Both the position numbers and the translations under genes were made by a program. From IMG/VR virus record IMGVR_UViG_3300035701_007809, positions 1 through 21,909 of that record: a stretch of DNA of 21,909 bases. One strand, written 5' to 3'. Numbering within the stretch: position 1 is the stretch's first letter; each line of letters starts with the position of its first letter. Source of the stretch: a virus. Positions 279 to 13,414 of this stretch are shown here, in pieces. The notes below the pieces were generated by a model. That model was not told the DNA's origin, made no database searches, and saw only the letters and a program-made list of their open reading frames with translations.

Positions 279-665
279 ATGAGCCAATGGCAACACCTGG
301 CAGAGACGGTACTAAAAAGGACAGAAACGCTGCCCTCTGAGTATCAGACGCGTCTCAAGTTTGAACTCAAGGAGATCGACAAGCAAGGGGCCAACGATTA
401 CTGGCTCGGCGTTATCAGATCCGGCAAGAAGTTCGACACGAACCCGAACGGCCTCGTCCTCCCTTTCGTCCTCGGCATTACCCCAGTCGATCCCATCAAG
501 GCGCAGAGCAATTTTGTCATAGACAATACGGGAGAACCCGGCGAAATCGCGGAGATAACCCTAGATAGCGGGGAGACAGTCTCAGTACCTGTACAGGCTT
601 TTGTAAGGTCAAAAAGCGGGCCTATTCTGGTCAAAGACCTTCAAATTGGCGACGAGCTTGTATAG
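279..665 (+). CDS. dnaE: N-terminal piece of DnaE palm with intein-N-like tail
   Basis: This 128-residue product matches the start of the polymerase palm of bacterial Pol III alpha. Residues 18-43 (Leu-Pro-Ser-Glu-Tyr-x-x-Arg-Leu...Asp-Tyr-Trp-Leu) and 65-75 (LGITPVDPIKA) align with the regions either side of the nucleotide-binding loop. The PHP domain that normally precedes the palm is missing. The normally invariant GPGRGSAAGS-type loop reads FDTNPNGLVLPF, so the Gly-Ser motif is lost. From about residue 90 the chain stops looking like DnaE and looks like intein block B: TLDSGETV, then GPILVKDL and IGDELV, ending at TAG as N-inteins of split inteins do. The block A cysteine segment is absent and the usual Thr-x-x-His reads Val-Pro-Val-Gln. 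ATG 279 is used because it follows the preceding stop closely; the frame extends further upstream, but there it overlaps the previous gene. It may be a broken gene rather than a working half. Confidence 0.6.
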   Translation: MSQWQHLAETVLKRTETLPSEYQTRLKFELKEIDKQGANDYWLGVIRSGKKFDTNPNGLVLPFVLGITPVDPIKAQSNFVIDNTGEPGEIAEITLDSGETVSVPVQAFVRSKSGPILVKDLQIGDELV

Positions 666-1616
666 ATAAAGATGTCTCAAGTCCCTCTCCGTAACTACCC
701 CAAAATTGTATCTATGCTTTTTGCACCAACGTCTTATGCATGGTAATTTGCGCAAAGTTGATTCCCACATACAGTTCCCGCGTACATCGAGGTTATTAGG
801 CCTTTTACTAGAGATGTATTTATGATACTTCACCTCTAATACCAATTGGCCATTGACTATTACATCCGGAACATATGCAAAACCGTTATCCAACTCTATG
901 ATAAACGGTTCATATTTTAATTCGTGCACGTCTGGCATCTTACAAAGCATCCTAATAACATGAGATTCAAGCTGTGATCTGACGCAGAAATTTCCAAGTC
1001 TGGTAGCAATCTTCATTCTGCCAGGTGACGTCTTCACATGATTTTGAGCACACTTTCTCGATAAGTAAAGCCTATAATCGCCATACTTTCTATTTAGCGT
1101 CTCAATGCGACACTTGTTCGATGCTGGATTCTGAATGGAATAGCGAACGCCATAACGCGAGAGATGTGTGTTCTCAACCTTTGATTTTACGCTATCGATG
1201 CCCATTATGTTCTTCACACCCAAACTGCGACGAATTGATCGCTGGTATCTTAAAAATCCGCTTCGGCTCTGCATATAATGTTTCGCACCGTAGCGTGCCT
1301 TGAATGTTTGCCTTCTCCGTTCGTCAATCTGCTTATAAACAAGATTCTTTCCCTTGTGTAAGCCGAACCGTTTCACAGCGCGCATTATGGATGATGTGCC
1401 GCAGCCGATGGACTCAGCAATTTGCCATAATGACATGTTCTTAGCGAGATACACGTATTTCAAACGTGCGCGAGTCATAGAATGCAAACTCGATGTGGAT
1501 TTTGTGCCCATATAGGATATCTTTGATGAGAATCACGTCCATAAAAATCATTCAGGGGAAGATCCGGAAGGTCTCCTGTGGTGCTTACAATGTTAGTGGG
1601 GTTATAGTCCTTCCGC
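522..1616. mobile_element. Probable split-intein/homing-endonuclease insertion in dnaE (limits approximate)
   Basis: Between the DnaE-like residues ...DPIKAQSNF (ending near 515) and the linker ...HRIEYHADLPDI (starting near 1620) lie an intein-N-like tail, a reverse-strand PD-(D/E)XK endonuclease gene and an intein-C-like head. This is the order reported for fractured phage genes, in which a split intein is interrupted by a free-standing endonuclease gene. The inserted endonuclease part is AT-richer than the flanks. No terminal repeats were seen, as expected for an intein-type element. The limits are set from protein similarity only and could be wrong by tens of bases. Confidence 0.5.
609..1511 (-). 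CDS. PD-(D/E)XK homing-endonuclease-like protein
   Basis: The product has 300 residues and is read from the reverse strand. Residues 13-52 form a helix-turn-helix of the kind found in phage homing endonucleases (MSLWQIAESIGCGTSSIMRA). Residues 68-145 carry repeated Arg-Tyr-Gly and Lys-Tyr-Gly segments with interspersed basic residues, typical of DNA-contacting linkers in such enzymes. The nuclease core is at 177-230: VRSQLE gives the helical Glu182, YVPDVIV gives Asp216, and LVLEVK gives Glu226 and Lys228. The gene lies between the two pieces of dnaE, opposite in strand, as in fractured genes with free-standing endonucleases. It overlaps the intein-like tail by 57 bases. Its DNA is visibly AT-richer than its neighbours (about 42% GC in line 1081-1140 against 57% in line 9241-9300), supporting separate origin. 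Start could instead be Met12 at 1478. The nuclease call is strong; homing is inferred from context. Confidence 0.8.
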   Translation of the reverse strand: MGTKSTSSLHSMTRARLKYVYLAKNMSLWQIAESIGCGTSSIMRAVKRFGLHKGKNLVYKQIDERRRQTFKARYGAKHYMQSRSGFLRYQRSIRRSLGVKNIMGIDSVKSKVENTHLSRYGVRYSIQNPASNKCRIETLNRKYGDYRLYLSRKCAQNHVKTSPGRMKIATRLGNFCVRSQLESHVIRMLCKMPDVHELKYEPFIIELDNGFAYVPDVIVNGQLVLEVKYHKYISSKRPNNLDVRGNCMWESTLRKLPCIRRWCKKHRYNFGVVTERDLRHLYLYKLVANLKVFDQNRPAF

Positions 1617-1669
1617 ACATCGGAATCCCACACCGCATTGAGTACCACGCCGACCTTCCGGATATATAG
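1526..1669 (+). CDS. Intein-C-like segment joined to DnaE linker (47 codons)
   Basis: A short ORF begins at ATG 1526 behind an AGGA motif at a workable distance, 14 bases from the divergent endonuclease start. Residues 1-28 resemble the C-terminal half of a split intein. Residues 3-11 (ITSIKIIQG) and 18-26 (AYNVSGVIV) align with the block F region of split inteins such as IMPDH-1 (YNVRGTVV). The conserved terminal His-Asn at the splice site is replaced by Leu-Pro, and the block F His is not present. The last residues, Arg-Ile-Glu...Asp-Leu-Pro-Asp-Ile, are DnaE sequence leading into the catalytic Asp-x-Asp motif. The frame then stops at TAG 1667-1669, two bases out of phase with the rest of dnaE. 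This is a likely remnant or natural half-intein; the small size and weak matches limit certainty. Confidence 0.45.
   Translation: MRITSIKIIQGKIRKVSCGAYNVSGVIVLPHIGIPHRIEYHADLPDI
1661..1669 (+). other. Frame break at TA repeat before the DnaE Asp-Val-Asp motif
   Basis: The linker frame reads Leu-Pro-Asp-Ile and then TAG. The large dnaE frame reads Ile-Asp-Val-Asp-Leu just beyond but has no start codon upstream of Met 1681. The bases GGATATATAGATG contain one TA unit too many. Removing it would give Leu-Pro-Asp-Ile-Asp-Val-Asp-Leu, exactly the expected polymerase motif. Possible explanations are a slippage mutation, an assembly or sequencing error, or a +2 re-pairing of the Ile tRNA from ATA 1664 to ATA 1666. 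Confidence 0.6.
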
Positions 1670-1680
1670 ATGTCGACCTG

Positions 1681-3792
1681 ATGCCCATCGCGCGCCCGTA
1701 CATTAAGCAATACGCCATCAAGAAGTACGGCGCTGAGAACGTCTGCAGCGTCGGTCTATGGCAGACTTACAACCCGAAGCTCGCACTTATAGATGCGGCA
1801 CGGGCGCTCGGATCGGATACACACGAGATTTCCGACATCACCAAGGAGCTTCCGAACGAATTCGATGAAATGTCGCTTGAAGATGCTACCAAGGAATTCG
1901 ACGACTTCGCTGCATACGCCATGGCCAACAAGCATATCGTGGACATGGCTTACCGGATCGTCGGCCGCGTAAAGACCGCTGGCGTCCATGCCGGAGGCTT
2001 AATCATATCCAGCGTCCCCATCCGGCAGCACATTCCGCTGATGAAGATGCGCGACGAATGGGTCTCCGCCTGGACTGAAGGGAAAAGCACGCAGCTCTCA
2101 AAGTTCGGCTTCGTCAAGTTCGACATGTTGGGTCTCAAGAACGTCCAGTACATGTGGAATGCCAAAAAGCTCATCAAGATGAACCGCGACGTCAGTGTAG
2201 ACCTGGAATCGATACCGCTTGATGACGGGCCGTCTCTCAAGATGGCATCCGACCTCAAGACGGACAGCATCTTCCAGTTCGAAACGGATATCTCCAAGAG
2301 CATCTTGGCGAAGGGCGGAGTCAAGACTTTCAACGACCTCCTGATTTACACGTCCCTTGGTCGTCCCGGCCCGATGCCGCTAATCGACACGTACATCAAG
2401 CGCCGCGACGACAAGTCTCAGTCCTGGCGCAACGAAATACACCCGAAGATGGTCCAGATCCTGGAGGACACGTACGGGATCATCGTGTTCCAGGAGCAGC
2501 TCCAGAAGGTCTGGATGGACATCTGCGGGTTCACGTTCGCGGAATCAGAAGACGCTCGCAAGATCATAGCCAAGAAGTGGCAGGACAAGCTCCCGGCGCT
2601 CGGGCAGAAGGTCGTCATGGGAGCTGAGAGTACGCTGGGAGGCAAGAAGGCGGAAGAATTGTGGGAATCTATGGTCACGTTCGGCCGATATGCTTTCAAC
2701 CTGGCACATGGAACCGCCTATACTCTCATAGCCTATAGGACGCTCTGGCTCAAGGCCCATTACCCTACGGAATGGTGGGCCGCCGTCATGTCTGACTGTC
2801 ACCGCGAGCGCCTCGTCCGCTATATAGGCATCGCAAAGTCCGAGGGCGTCGAATTCGGCGTGCTGGATTGCTGTATACTCACGGAGAGCTTCACCGTCTC
2901 CGGCGACAAGGTCCTTCCAGGCCTCAATTCCATCAAAGGCATTGGCCAGTCGGCGAGGGACTTGGCCAAGAACAATAGACAGTATAAGGACATAGACGAG
3001 TTTATCGAGGTTAACGGAAAGGGCCGCGTCATCCTGGAGCGCCTCATCAAGCTCGGAGCCTTCGACAGAATCCACCCGAACAGGAAAGCGATCTGGCTGT
3101 GGTACCTCTTCAAGTACCAAAAGGAGAGGGAAACCAAGGAAATCGTGAGCAAGGCCTTTGCCTGGCCCGAGAATAAGATAACAGTGAAGAGGCAGGAACT
3201 GATAGCTGAATTCAGGAAGCTACATCCGAAGCGGAGTATCATACCACCCAAGATCGCGAACTGGTCCCCGAAGGTGGAACCGACGCTCAACGAGTTCCTA
3301 GAAAAGTTTAAGGACGACCGGTTTATGAACCGGGAAATCCTTCAGTTTGAGAAGGCCCACCTAGGATTCTATTGGACGTCACCGATGGGGCAGTTCAACC
3401 ACAGAGGCAACACGATAGCCAGCGCTAAGATATCCGGTACGCTGGAATGCGTTGTCGAGGACGTAAAGACCAAGAAGTCTGAAAAGTCCGGTAATGAGTA
3501 CGTACGCATGACGGTCACGGACGGCATCGAGACGGCCACGGTACTTGTCTGGGGCGATGACCTAGCCGATCAGTCGAATGCAGATGCCCTGGCTATTGGG
3601 AACGGAATCTTCATCAAGGTGAACTGGACAGACAAGTATCGCAGCTTCAACATCGCTTCGGGATCTGTAATCATCCCGCTCCGAAGGAAGTCCGACTCTG
3701 AGGAGCTACAGGAGCAGGAAGAACAGGAAGCGCAGGAAGAAAACCTAGAAGAAGTTGAGCCCAAGGAGACGTCAGATGCTCCTGCTCAGTAA
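1681..3792 (+). CDS. dnaE: DNA polymerase III alpha subunit, C-terminal part
   Basis: The product has 703 residues and is the bulk of a C-family replicative polymerase, copying the phage genome. It opens at the helix after the first two catalytic aspartates (RPYIKQYAIKKYG). It continues through GVHAGGLIIS (101-110), FVKFDMLGLKN holding the third catalytic Asp148, DSIFQFETD, GRPGPM, and the fingers region TYGIIVFQEQ. It then has FNLAHGTAYTLIAYRTLWLK, a helix-hairpin-helix segment (GLNSIKGIG) and an OB-fold near 575-650. The tail is very acidic and Glu/Gln-rich. ATG 1681 is the only start in frame. Asp-Val-Asp is encoded just upstream in this same frame, so translation from 1681 would omit two of three metal ligands. 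The stop overlaps the next gene. The domain match is unambiguous; whether an active enzyme is made depends on the frame break and on the separate N-terminal piece. Confidence 0.93.
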   Translation: MPIARPYIKQYAIKKYGAENVCSVGLWQTYNPKLALIDAARALGSDTHEISDITKELPNEFDEMSLEDATKEFDDFAAYAMANKHIVDMAYRIVGRVKTAGVHAGGLIISSVPIRQHIPLMKMRDEWVSAWTEGKSTQLSKFGFVKFDMLGLKNVQYMWNAKKLIKMNRDVSVDLESIPLDDGPSLKMASDLKTDSIFQFETDISKSILAKGGVKTFNDLLIYTSLGRPGPMPLIDTYIKRRDDKSQSWRNEIHPKMVQILEDTYGIIVFQEQLQKVWMDICGFTFAESEDARKIIAKKWQDKLPALGQKVVMGAESTLGGKKAEELWESMVTFGRYAFNLAHGTAYTLIAYRTLWLKAHYPTEWWAAVMSDCHRERLVRYIGIAKSEGVEFGVLDCCILTESFTVSGDKVLPGLNSIKGIGQSARDLAKNNRQYKDIDEFIEVNGKGRVILERLIKLGAFDRIHPNRKAIWLWYLFKYQKERETKEIVSKAFAWPENKITVKRQELIAEFRKLHPKRSIIPPKIANWSPKVEPTLNEFLEKFKDDRFMNREILQFEKAHLGFYWTSPMGQFNHRGNTIASAKISGTLECVVEDVKTKKSEKSGNEYVRMTVTDGIETATVLVWGDDLADQSNADALAIGNGIFIKVNWTDKYRSFNIASGSVIIPLRRKSDSEELQEQEEQEAQEENLEEVEPKETSDAPAQ

Positions 3793-12244: not shown

Positions 12245-13414
12245 GTGAAGCATGCCTTCGTAATGTACGATTATTCCCGCGAACGGAACCCCAAGCCACT
12301 CATGGCCGCATTCCTGGGAGATTCCGGCGTCAGCTTCTATCCGATGTTCCTCCATGGGAAGAACCTACTTGAGGTCTACAAGAACATAGACGCGTGCCGT
12401 AACGAATTCGCAGGAAGCAAGCTGCCACTCGTCCTCGTGAACGACTTCAAAGCCTACCTCGATTTCATAGATCCTAACGAGACAACTATCTTCAACGCCT
12501 ACGACTATAGCCTGAACAAGCAACCAAGATATGGCAAATTAGAGGAGTTAGACGCCAAGAAAATCTGCGCGAAGGCGCTCCTAAGCATCAAGGACGTCGC
12601 GCCCGAGAAATGGATGCGGATCCTTGCCCGCGCATCCGTCGTCTACCACTTCATACAGAAGCGCGGCGTCATGAACGGACACTTGCGCGTTCACCCAATC
12701 TATCTGCTCAACACCGTTAGCGGAAGGTCCAAGTCGGTCGGGTTCAACGTACAGGGGACTGATGACAGCTATGACATAAAGCCGGTCTCCGAAGAACGGA
12801 ACCTCATGGTCCACATCGACTGGGTTGCGGCAGATATGAGGGCCGCTCAGATTCTAAGTAGGGATGAGTTCCTTGCAGAGTCATTCAAGAAGTCCGATCC
12901 ATACGCCGTCATGGCTGGCACGAATAGCGGCCTGACGAGGGATGACTGTAAGGGCATGATGATCCGCGCCCTATATGACATGGACGTCGACAACCCAGCC
13001 CTGCAATTCTATCCGCAGCTCCATCAATGGATCGGAACAGAGCGTGACAAGATTAAGTCCGTTGGCTTTACGGAATCCGCACTCGGCCGCCGATTCATGC
13101 TCAAGAGCGGCGGAGACGAGCTCCATAACATGCGCAGCGTATTTAACGCGGCGATCCAGGGGACTGTGGTACATGCCATGCAGTGCGCCCTATGGAAGCT
13201 CCACGAGGGGATGCCGGATGACATCATGACGGAGATGCACGACGCCATAACGTTGTCCGCAGATAGATATACGCTCAAGACGGCAATAGAGGCAGGCATT
13301 GAGACTATGCTCCACCCGTTCAGTGGCATCTTGGACGATAACCCCGCGTTTCCGCTACGAGTATACGTCGGCAGGAAATGGCGCAACTGGAAGCTCCTGA
13401 AGGAAGTCCGATGA
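12245..13414 (+). CDS. polA: Family A DNA polymerase domain, short and divergent
   Basis: The product has 389 residues and is a template-directed DNA polymerase of the Pol I palm type. TVSGRSKSVGFNVQGT (158-172) matches the thumb/palm TxxGRxSSxxPNLQ element. Motif A is HIDWVAADMRAAQILSRD with Asp192. The O helix TRDDCKGMMIRALYDM keeps Arg232, Lys236 and Tyr244 at the Pol I spacing, with Ile240 at the Phe762 position. GRRFML and NAAIQGTVVHAM precede motif C, EMHDAITL, with His332 and Asp333 but Ala334 where Pol I has Glu. There is no recognisable 3'-5' exonuclease, and the protein is much shorter than the T7 or E. coli enzymes. Start is GTG 12245; no strong ribosome site. ATGA overlap joins it to the next gene. 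Which of the two polymerases replicates the genome cannot be decided here. Confidence 0.88.
   Translation: MKHAFVMYDYSRERNPKPLMAAFLGDSGVSFYPMFLHGKNLLEVYKNIDACRNEFAGSKLPLVLVNDFKAYLDFIDPNETTIFNAYDYSLNKQPRYGKLEELDAKKICAKALLSIKDVAPEKWMRILARASVVYHFIQKRGVMNGHLRVHPIYLLNTVSGRSKSVGFNVQGTDDSYDIKPVSEERNLMVHIDWVAADMRAAQILSRDEFLAESFKKSDPYAVMAGTNSGLTRDDCKGMMIRALYDMDVDNPALQFYPQLHQWIGTERDKIKSVGFTESALGRRFMLKSGGDELHNMRSVFNAAIQGTVVHAMQCALWKLHEGMPDDIMTEMHDAITLSADRYTLKTAIEAGIETMLHPFSGILDDNPAFPLRVYVGRKWRNWKLLKEVR

Follow-up and report, generated by a model that had tools for sequence, protein, structure and literature searches.

The fractured dnaE locus

The window described here is the whole of the IMG/VR virus record IMGVR_UViG_3300035701_007809, a stretch of 21,909 bases. 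It carries a gene for the C-family DNA polymerase DnaE that is split between ITPVDPIK and LPDIDVDL, with a nuclease gene on the reverse strand separating the two halves. The fracture falls after a FERFL-type segment and before the PDxDxD catalytic motif, and the insertion is bounded by ITPVDPIK on the left and by GIPHRIEYHADLPDI on the right, where native DnaE resumes. We refer to comparison loci by L-numbers (such as L002 or L201). No relative of the window over its whole DNA was found in phage records. In the closest uninterrupted relatives of its DnaE, which are roughly 35-50% identical, a single gene spans the site (for example L160, L162 and L180, with DPIDRGIPHKVEYHPDFPDIDIDF in the last). 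Because these loci run through the same codons without a break, the insertion is real, and the stretches 501-662 and 1526-1621 of the window are not ordinary polymerase sequence.

The N-half, on the forward strand, shares its gene start with the uninterrupted relatives L018 and L160-L180, and consists of a DnaE palm piece at 279-500 (Pfam DNA_pol3_alpha, residues 8-76, E 6e-4) that continues into a tail with its stop codon at 501-665. This N-piece (279-665) has neither a PHP domain nor a GRGS motif. In the window's clade these lie on a separate upstream gene ending in FDRFLSPSRGG or similar (L164:736-2085, as well as upstream genes in L018, L019, L160-L180 and L191), and at the start of the gene that follows it the palm segment is present a second time, in degenerate form, so that the polymerase of the window may consist of three chains. 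The C-half carries the bacterial-type DnaE features, namely the PDxDxD palm motif, the third Asp and the fingers, including the invariant residues D1, D3 and D152 (alignment A1), and is 42-43% identical to L018 and L019.

The nuclease gene, at 609-1511 on the reverse strand, encodes DUF7487 repeats (Pfam E 1.1e-8, above cut-off) and a putative TnsA-like PD-(D/E)XK domain (match to the TnsA N-terminal domain at E 5e-5 and 24.2 bits, just under the cut-off of 26.5), and its 3' end overlaps the N-tail. A search for close relatives of this protein returned a single weak match of no use, and an AlphaFold model made without an alignment (predicted local distance difference test score, pLDDT, of 37) was too poor for comparison and is not interpreted. 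A search of the window against Rfam gave no intron, of group I or of any other known type, at the gathering threshold. An earlier note on this DNA, made from the letters alone, had claimed a palm piece ending in an intein-like tail and a reverse-strand endonuclease between the halves; the palm piece, its tail and the reverse-strand gene are confirmed, the last as that of a putative PD-(D/E)XK nuclease.

The same fracture, with the same kind of tails, is found in dozens of related phages. The break point is shared by the Cellulophaga phages phi13:1 and phiST, Tenacibaculum phage Larrie, Bacteroides phage BS-TP1 and most of 58 IMG/VR loci; the tails take the form ..(Y/F).LTL.(D/N)GK... and end in EGDeI, and the heads of the C-halves start with M(K/R)I or MKV. 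The interval between the halves is variable among these relatives, and may hold nothing, a Dda-like helicase gene, a methyltransferase gene or HNH genes. In L164 (3725-3780) the last bases of the N-half, including the stop codon, are tandemly repeated directly after it (CTTAAGATTGGTGATGAGATCTGA). Near the fracture site, L064 (3990-4950) has its DnaE broken after LLFER; the insert carries a LAGLIDADG gene and is possibly a group I intron, with no Rfam match.

Intein relics at the break

Likeness to inteins is confined to the block B region in the N-tail (501-662; alignment A4) and to the block F region in the C-head, which opens the reading frame of the C-half at ATG 1526 and extends to 1621 (alignment A6). 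The sister locus L164 has the same N-tail and a head 59% identical to that of the window, and the pattern M[KR]IT.I is common to the window, the heads of gut phages and the true IntC of L083, to which the heads can be aligned (alignment A6). A profile of the tails matches solved intein structures, always near chain residues ~75-120 (best 5o9j, E 8e-4), and 7 of 27 tails match PF14890 (Intein_splicing), the best at E 2e-4, yet below cut-off. An AlphaFold model of a gut tail, reliable chiefly over the tail itself at a pLDDT of about 80, was paired in the VIA rows after realignment with inteins or Hedgehog Hint domains at low Z (best 4.6); as the Foldseek E-values all exceed 0.1, structure serves here as supporting evidence only. 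Together, profile and structure comparison support an intein origin of tail and head. L189 keeps a fuller intein-like insert with Cys1 and His-Asn-Ser at the same site, so that the fracture itself appears to be of intein origin.

The residues needed for splicing are missing. There is no block A with Cys, Ser or Ala at position 1, the tail starting about 35 residues too late and without a conserved nucleophile; the TxxH of block B is replaced by PxxA in the window and L164 and by DxxA in the gut tails; and the C-terminal His-Asn before Cys, Ser or Thr, present in the L083 control, is absent from the heads of the window, L164 and the gut phages. For these reasons splicing is not expected, and both ends would be splicing-dead intein relics, probably acting as docking tails. 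Since the fractured loci L002, L009, L152, L164 and L201 keep their tails with no endonuclease between the halves, the tails seem to persist as the ends of two polypeptides.

Several DnaE inteins were encountered beside these relics. In L189 (1281-2990) a DUF7487 nuclease gene sits between the block F and block G parts of the intein at the fracture site, and a hop signal of the kind described below follows a few codons 3' of His-Asn; to our knowledge, a split between blocks F and G is not known from elsewhere. The phage DnaE of L083 (780-6974) contains a true split intein at GRG/C...HN/S, a site other than that of the window, and between its halves lie a gene for a D12-class adenine methyltransferase and another open reading frame (ORF), possibly a small restriction-modification pair replacing the homing nuclease. 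A further intein-like DnaE sequence, upstream of 4001 in L188, ends in VLVHN/C before GYVIADKP, again at a different insertion site.

A second break inside the catalytic motif

The C-half of the window is broken once more. After the head, native DnaE codons (1622-1666) match the empty-site relatives L180, L162 and L160, and the frame then changes inside the catalytic motif (CTT CCG GAT ATA TAG ATG): the head frame reads to HADLPDI and meets a TAG at 1667-1669, within PDIDVDL, and the DnaE frame resumes at 1669 as DVDLMPIARP, two bases out. From there the catalytic DVD, the fingers and the C-terminal part continue to 3792, with 703 codons open and Pfam matches on 1681-3792 to the palm (E 1.4e-23) and finger (E 1.8e-35) domains. 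In the resumed frame no ATG, GTG or TTG lies ahead of the codons for the catalytic Asp residues; the first start codon there is the ATG at 1681, after DVDL. The earlier note had an intein-C-like head joined to the rest of DnaE; the head and the native codons after it stand, the joining in frame does not, and the note had overlooked what lies at 1562-1669: the break in frame, the stem and the hop signal.

The break is accompanied by a perfect inverted repeat of 12 base pairs (bp), whose 5' arm lies at 1562-1573 (ATCCGGAAGGTC) and whose 3' arm lies at 1652-1663 (GACCTTCCGGAT), ending three bases 5' of the stop and abutting the last sense codon, ATA (1664-1666). A stem as long as this occurs once among 2,170 sampled window positions, and the predicted RNA fold of 1540-1690 has a free energy of -58.4 kcal/mol (z -5.0, 0 of 200 shuffles). 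The ATA would be a take-off codon, and an identical ATA in the +2 position (1666-1668) a landing codon from which LPDIDVDL is restored exactly.

The same layout recurs in 12 further loci, and the eight lineages concerned share one order: stem, codon, stop, 2-9 extra bases, a similar codon and the exact catalytic motif. In the 12 relatives the stem ends 1-6 bases 5' of a stop codon inside the PDxDxD motif, the stop (TAA, TAG or TGA) directly follows the presumed take-off codon in 12 of 12, and a skip from that codon to the similar one restores the canonical motif each time, with no residue gained or lost. The junctions read GAC TAGT GAC (L164 and L165), GAC TAAG GAC (L189), GAC TAGC GAT (L201), GAC TAAACT GAT (L152), CCG TAAG TCG (L105), CCA TAAGG TCG (L106), CCG TAAGG TCG (L108), CCG TAAC TCG (L129 and L130), CCG TAAG GCG (L015) and GTC TGACG GTA (L134), LPDVDNDF being the gut-phage counterpart of LPDIDVDL. 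By their landing-codon parallels the loci group as L164, L189, L201, L152, L134, L105/L106/L108 and L129/L130/L015. The extra bases number 2, 7, 8 or 9, and no single frameshift rule therefore fits; a recoded stop codon was rejected on the ground that most gaps are not multiples of three.

Stems and codons were compared with 136 intact DnaE loci. Stem lengths in the eight lineages are 12, 7, 10, 10, 7, 7, 12 and 10 bp, against a mean of 5.4 and a maximum of 8 in the intact loci (p 4.4e-7). Take-off and landing codons agree in at least two of three bases in all eight lineages (p 3.6e-7), exactly so in three (p 2e-4), and the AUA/AUA pair of the window matches. When the gut heads are aligned by codon, the forms with the break pair at 9 of 9 stem positions and intact relatives at 3-7 of 9, and compensatory changes are seen between L105 and L106 as well as between one cassette family and the other. 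The C-halves of L105 and L106 show a ratio of nonsynonymous to synonymous substitutions (dN/dS) of 0.017 at dS 1.3 over 690 codons, and their gaps differ by one base. A scan for the pattern GAC-TARN-GAY gave 13 viral matches, four of them dnaE loci (two being the L164/L165 contigs again), and as a control 13 matches in 84,980 bacterial and archaeal genomes, none in dnaE. In a tree built from 62 C-halves, 10 changes of the hop state are required, and branches with good support force them. In L201 (4739-4800) a second strong hairpin, holding the stop and the landing codon, comes right after the first, the adjacent stems reaching z -8.9. A match to the first hop pattern in L156 was discarded as chance, lying in an unrelated gene.

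Exchange of cassettes between near-identical phages

Two pairs of gut phages carry occupied and empty sites of the HNH form in near-identical backgrounds, a comparison found for that form and not for the window. Between L129 and L124, whose flanks are 93% identical on both sides, 645 bases in L129 replace 103 bases in L124; they hold a second HNH gene and a head unlike that of L124, together with the stem, the stop and the landing codon. L105 and L102 (96-99% identical flanks) differ in the same way. In both pairs homology returns, at the right edge, at the base after the landing codon. To judge from these exchanges, nuclease gene and hop signal travel together in the gut phages, where a single mobile cassette comprises the HNH gene, the head, the stem, the stop and the landing codon. 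By analogy, the antisense nuclease of the window, which is of another type, may be mobile jointly with its hop signal.

Elsewhere the window encodes RecA, DnaB, a gp32-like protein, a 5'-3' exonuclease and a uracil glycosylase, together with a short family A DNA polymerase-like ORF of 389 amino acids (12245-13414), which here stands beside DnaE in one phage.

Interpretation and alternatives

We suggest that these loci are homing cassettes with ribosome hops of the type known from T4 gene 60, placed in the active site of a polymerase, and from the sequence comparisons put the probability of this reading at roughly 0.65. An intein would formerly have occupied the fracture site and then decayed, leaving two DnaE chains that remain unspliced and assemble non-covalently with the aid of the relic tails. 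The C-half would be made by a programmed hop. While ATA occupies the P site and TAG the A site, the upstream stem would refold and so move the mRNA; the peptidyl-tRNA would then re-pair with the second ATA, two bases further along, and GAT GTC GAC (DVD) would be read after landing, giving LPDIDVDL. Lying at the codons that are most conserved in the polymerase, the scar would spoil the target of the nuclease, and the element's own genome would thereby be protected. With slightly less assurance, we favour the broader picture of a widespread mobile system, in which cassettes carrying stem, stop and landing codon scar the catalytic codons and have been gained or exchanged time and again, the polymerase being held together by splicing-dead remnants of inteins.

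The earlier note had proposed a split-intein architecture with a homing endonuclease, which, if working, would trans-splice the halves into one polymerase. Its fractured-gene architecture stands as a palm split with intein-derived ends and a nuclease between them, the ends being recognisable as such by profile and structure, and true split DnaE inteins do occur in phages, as in L083 at another site, while the fuller intein of L189 lies at this very one. Trans-splicing is nevertheless very unlikely: the tail keeps a block B-like region alone, there is no block A, TxxH or terminal His-Asn, and splicing would leave the frame break at 1667 unmended. That break could instead belong to a dnaE killed by nuclease invasion and a 2-bp indel, with another polymerase, such as the family A fragment at 12245-13414, replicating the genome. 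A dinucleotide gap in a TA run and the presence of that fragment are in keeping with such decay, which we still regard as unlikely given a C-half open over 703 codons, the strong purifying selection (dN/dS 0.017) under which other lineages keep the arrangement, and stems and matched codons that would not arise by decay.

Translation might also cross the stop by an ordinary programmed frameshift (+1 or -1) or by readthrough, adding one to three residues before DxD. A stem plus a stop codon is a usual setting for shifts, and +1 would open the frame in L105, L129, L164, L189 and L201. The shifts required vary (+1, +2/-1, 0), however, even between the near-identical cassettes L105 and L106, and residues would be added inside an invariant motif that a hop restores exactly every time, which makes this account quite improbable. 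Termination and reinitiation, with the head as a separate peptide and the C-half started independently downstream, could draw on the stop immediately 5' of the C-half frame and on the ATG at 1681, but is scarcely credible, as the window offers no start before the catalytic Asp codons, the first start available to the C-half ORF of L106 is a GTG that follows the motif, and the product would miss two of three catalytic Asp residues.

The case for hopping is strongest when the loci are taken together, and several observations weigh against it. The window's own gap is a mere TA dinucleotide within ATATATA, a search for a second record of this junction found none, and for the window taken alone mutation or an assembly error may be the source. 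We favour a hop there too, but less firmly than for the set, the gap being so short and lying in a run of TA. By fold alone the L164 stem is unexceptional (z -1.4), and one intact control also folds well (L120, z -3.4). Stems of 8 bp occur in 5 of the 136 intact controls, longer than in three of the eight hop lineages; the 8-nucleotide placement window for stems was picked after the first cases had been seen, and the L106 codons agree in only one of three bases. HNH neighbours are enriched rather than exclusive (5 of 6 hop loci against 7 of 45 intact ones, p 0.002), a gene 60-like nascent-peptide signal was not identified, no test having been aimed at the heads, and docking of the tails is something we only infer.

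Should the proposal hold, programmed hopping, until now known from very few genes, chiefly that of T4, would be no curiosity of that phage, and the rules of bypass could be tested by comparing naturally occurring short hops that differ in gap, codons and stem. The loci would also illustrate how mobile DNA persists in codons for the active site of a polymerase, and that an intein can decay into an assembly tag that no longer splices. Gene-calling programs would overlook where such C-halves begin, or label them as broken.

Comparison with known systems

A search of the open literature met neither bypassing in dnaE nor a relic of a phage split-intein DnaE (subscription papers lay outside the search), and priority is not certain for either. 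In phages, fractured genes that combine split inteins with free-standing endonucleases are known for gp41, NrdA, NrdJ and IMPDH. The window resembles them in its broken gene, intein-derived ends and nuclease between the halves, and differs in ends that lack any splicing residues and in the second break with its proposed hop.

NrdA of Aeromonas phage Aeh1 and the split gp43 of phage 25 are genes-in-pieces after endonuclease insertion, whose products assemble unspliced (PMC2988022). The two chains proposed here would likewise assemble without splicing, whereas neither of those systems has a hop. Their ends, so far as we know, are not intein-derived.

Established cases of programmed bypassing are T4 gene 60 and yeast mitochondria, and a Streptomyces phage offers a candidate (PMC5009743). 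Stop-hops in synthetic constructs, in the account of Weiss 1987 given in PMC5009743, have matched codons around a stop, with 9 nucleotides read as one amino acid. Matched codons likewise flank the stop in our loci, over 5-12 nucleotides, and the loci differ in being natural, stem-associated and mobile.

The closest parallel is T4 gene 39/mobA/gene 60, in which a homing endonuclease splits the gene of a replication enzyme and a programmed bypass spans 50 nucleotides; the coding gap opens with a stop right after the take-off codon, an upstream stem serves as motor, and the gap has been proposed to be protective (PMC5009743, PMC3014915). The loci described here share the nuclease-split replication gene, the stop after the take-off codon, the upstream stem, the matching landing codon and a gap proposed to protect its own element, as for T4 gene 60 and mobA. 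Unlike gene 60, they concern a C-family DNA polymerase, with 2-9 extra bases placed in catalytic codons in at least eight lineages, with ends that are intein relics, and with a nuclease that is HNH, DUF7487/TnsA-like or absent, and antisense in the window.

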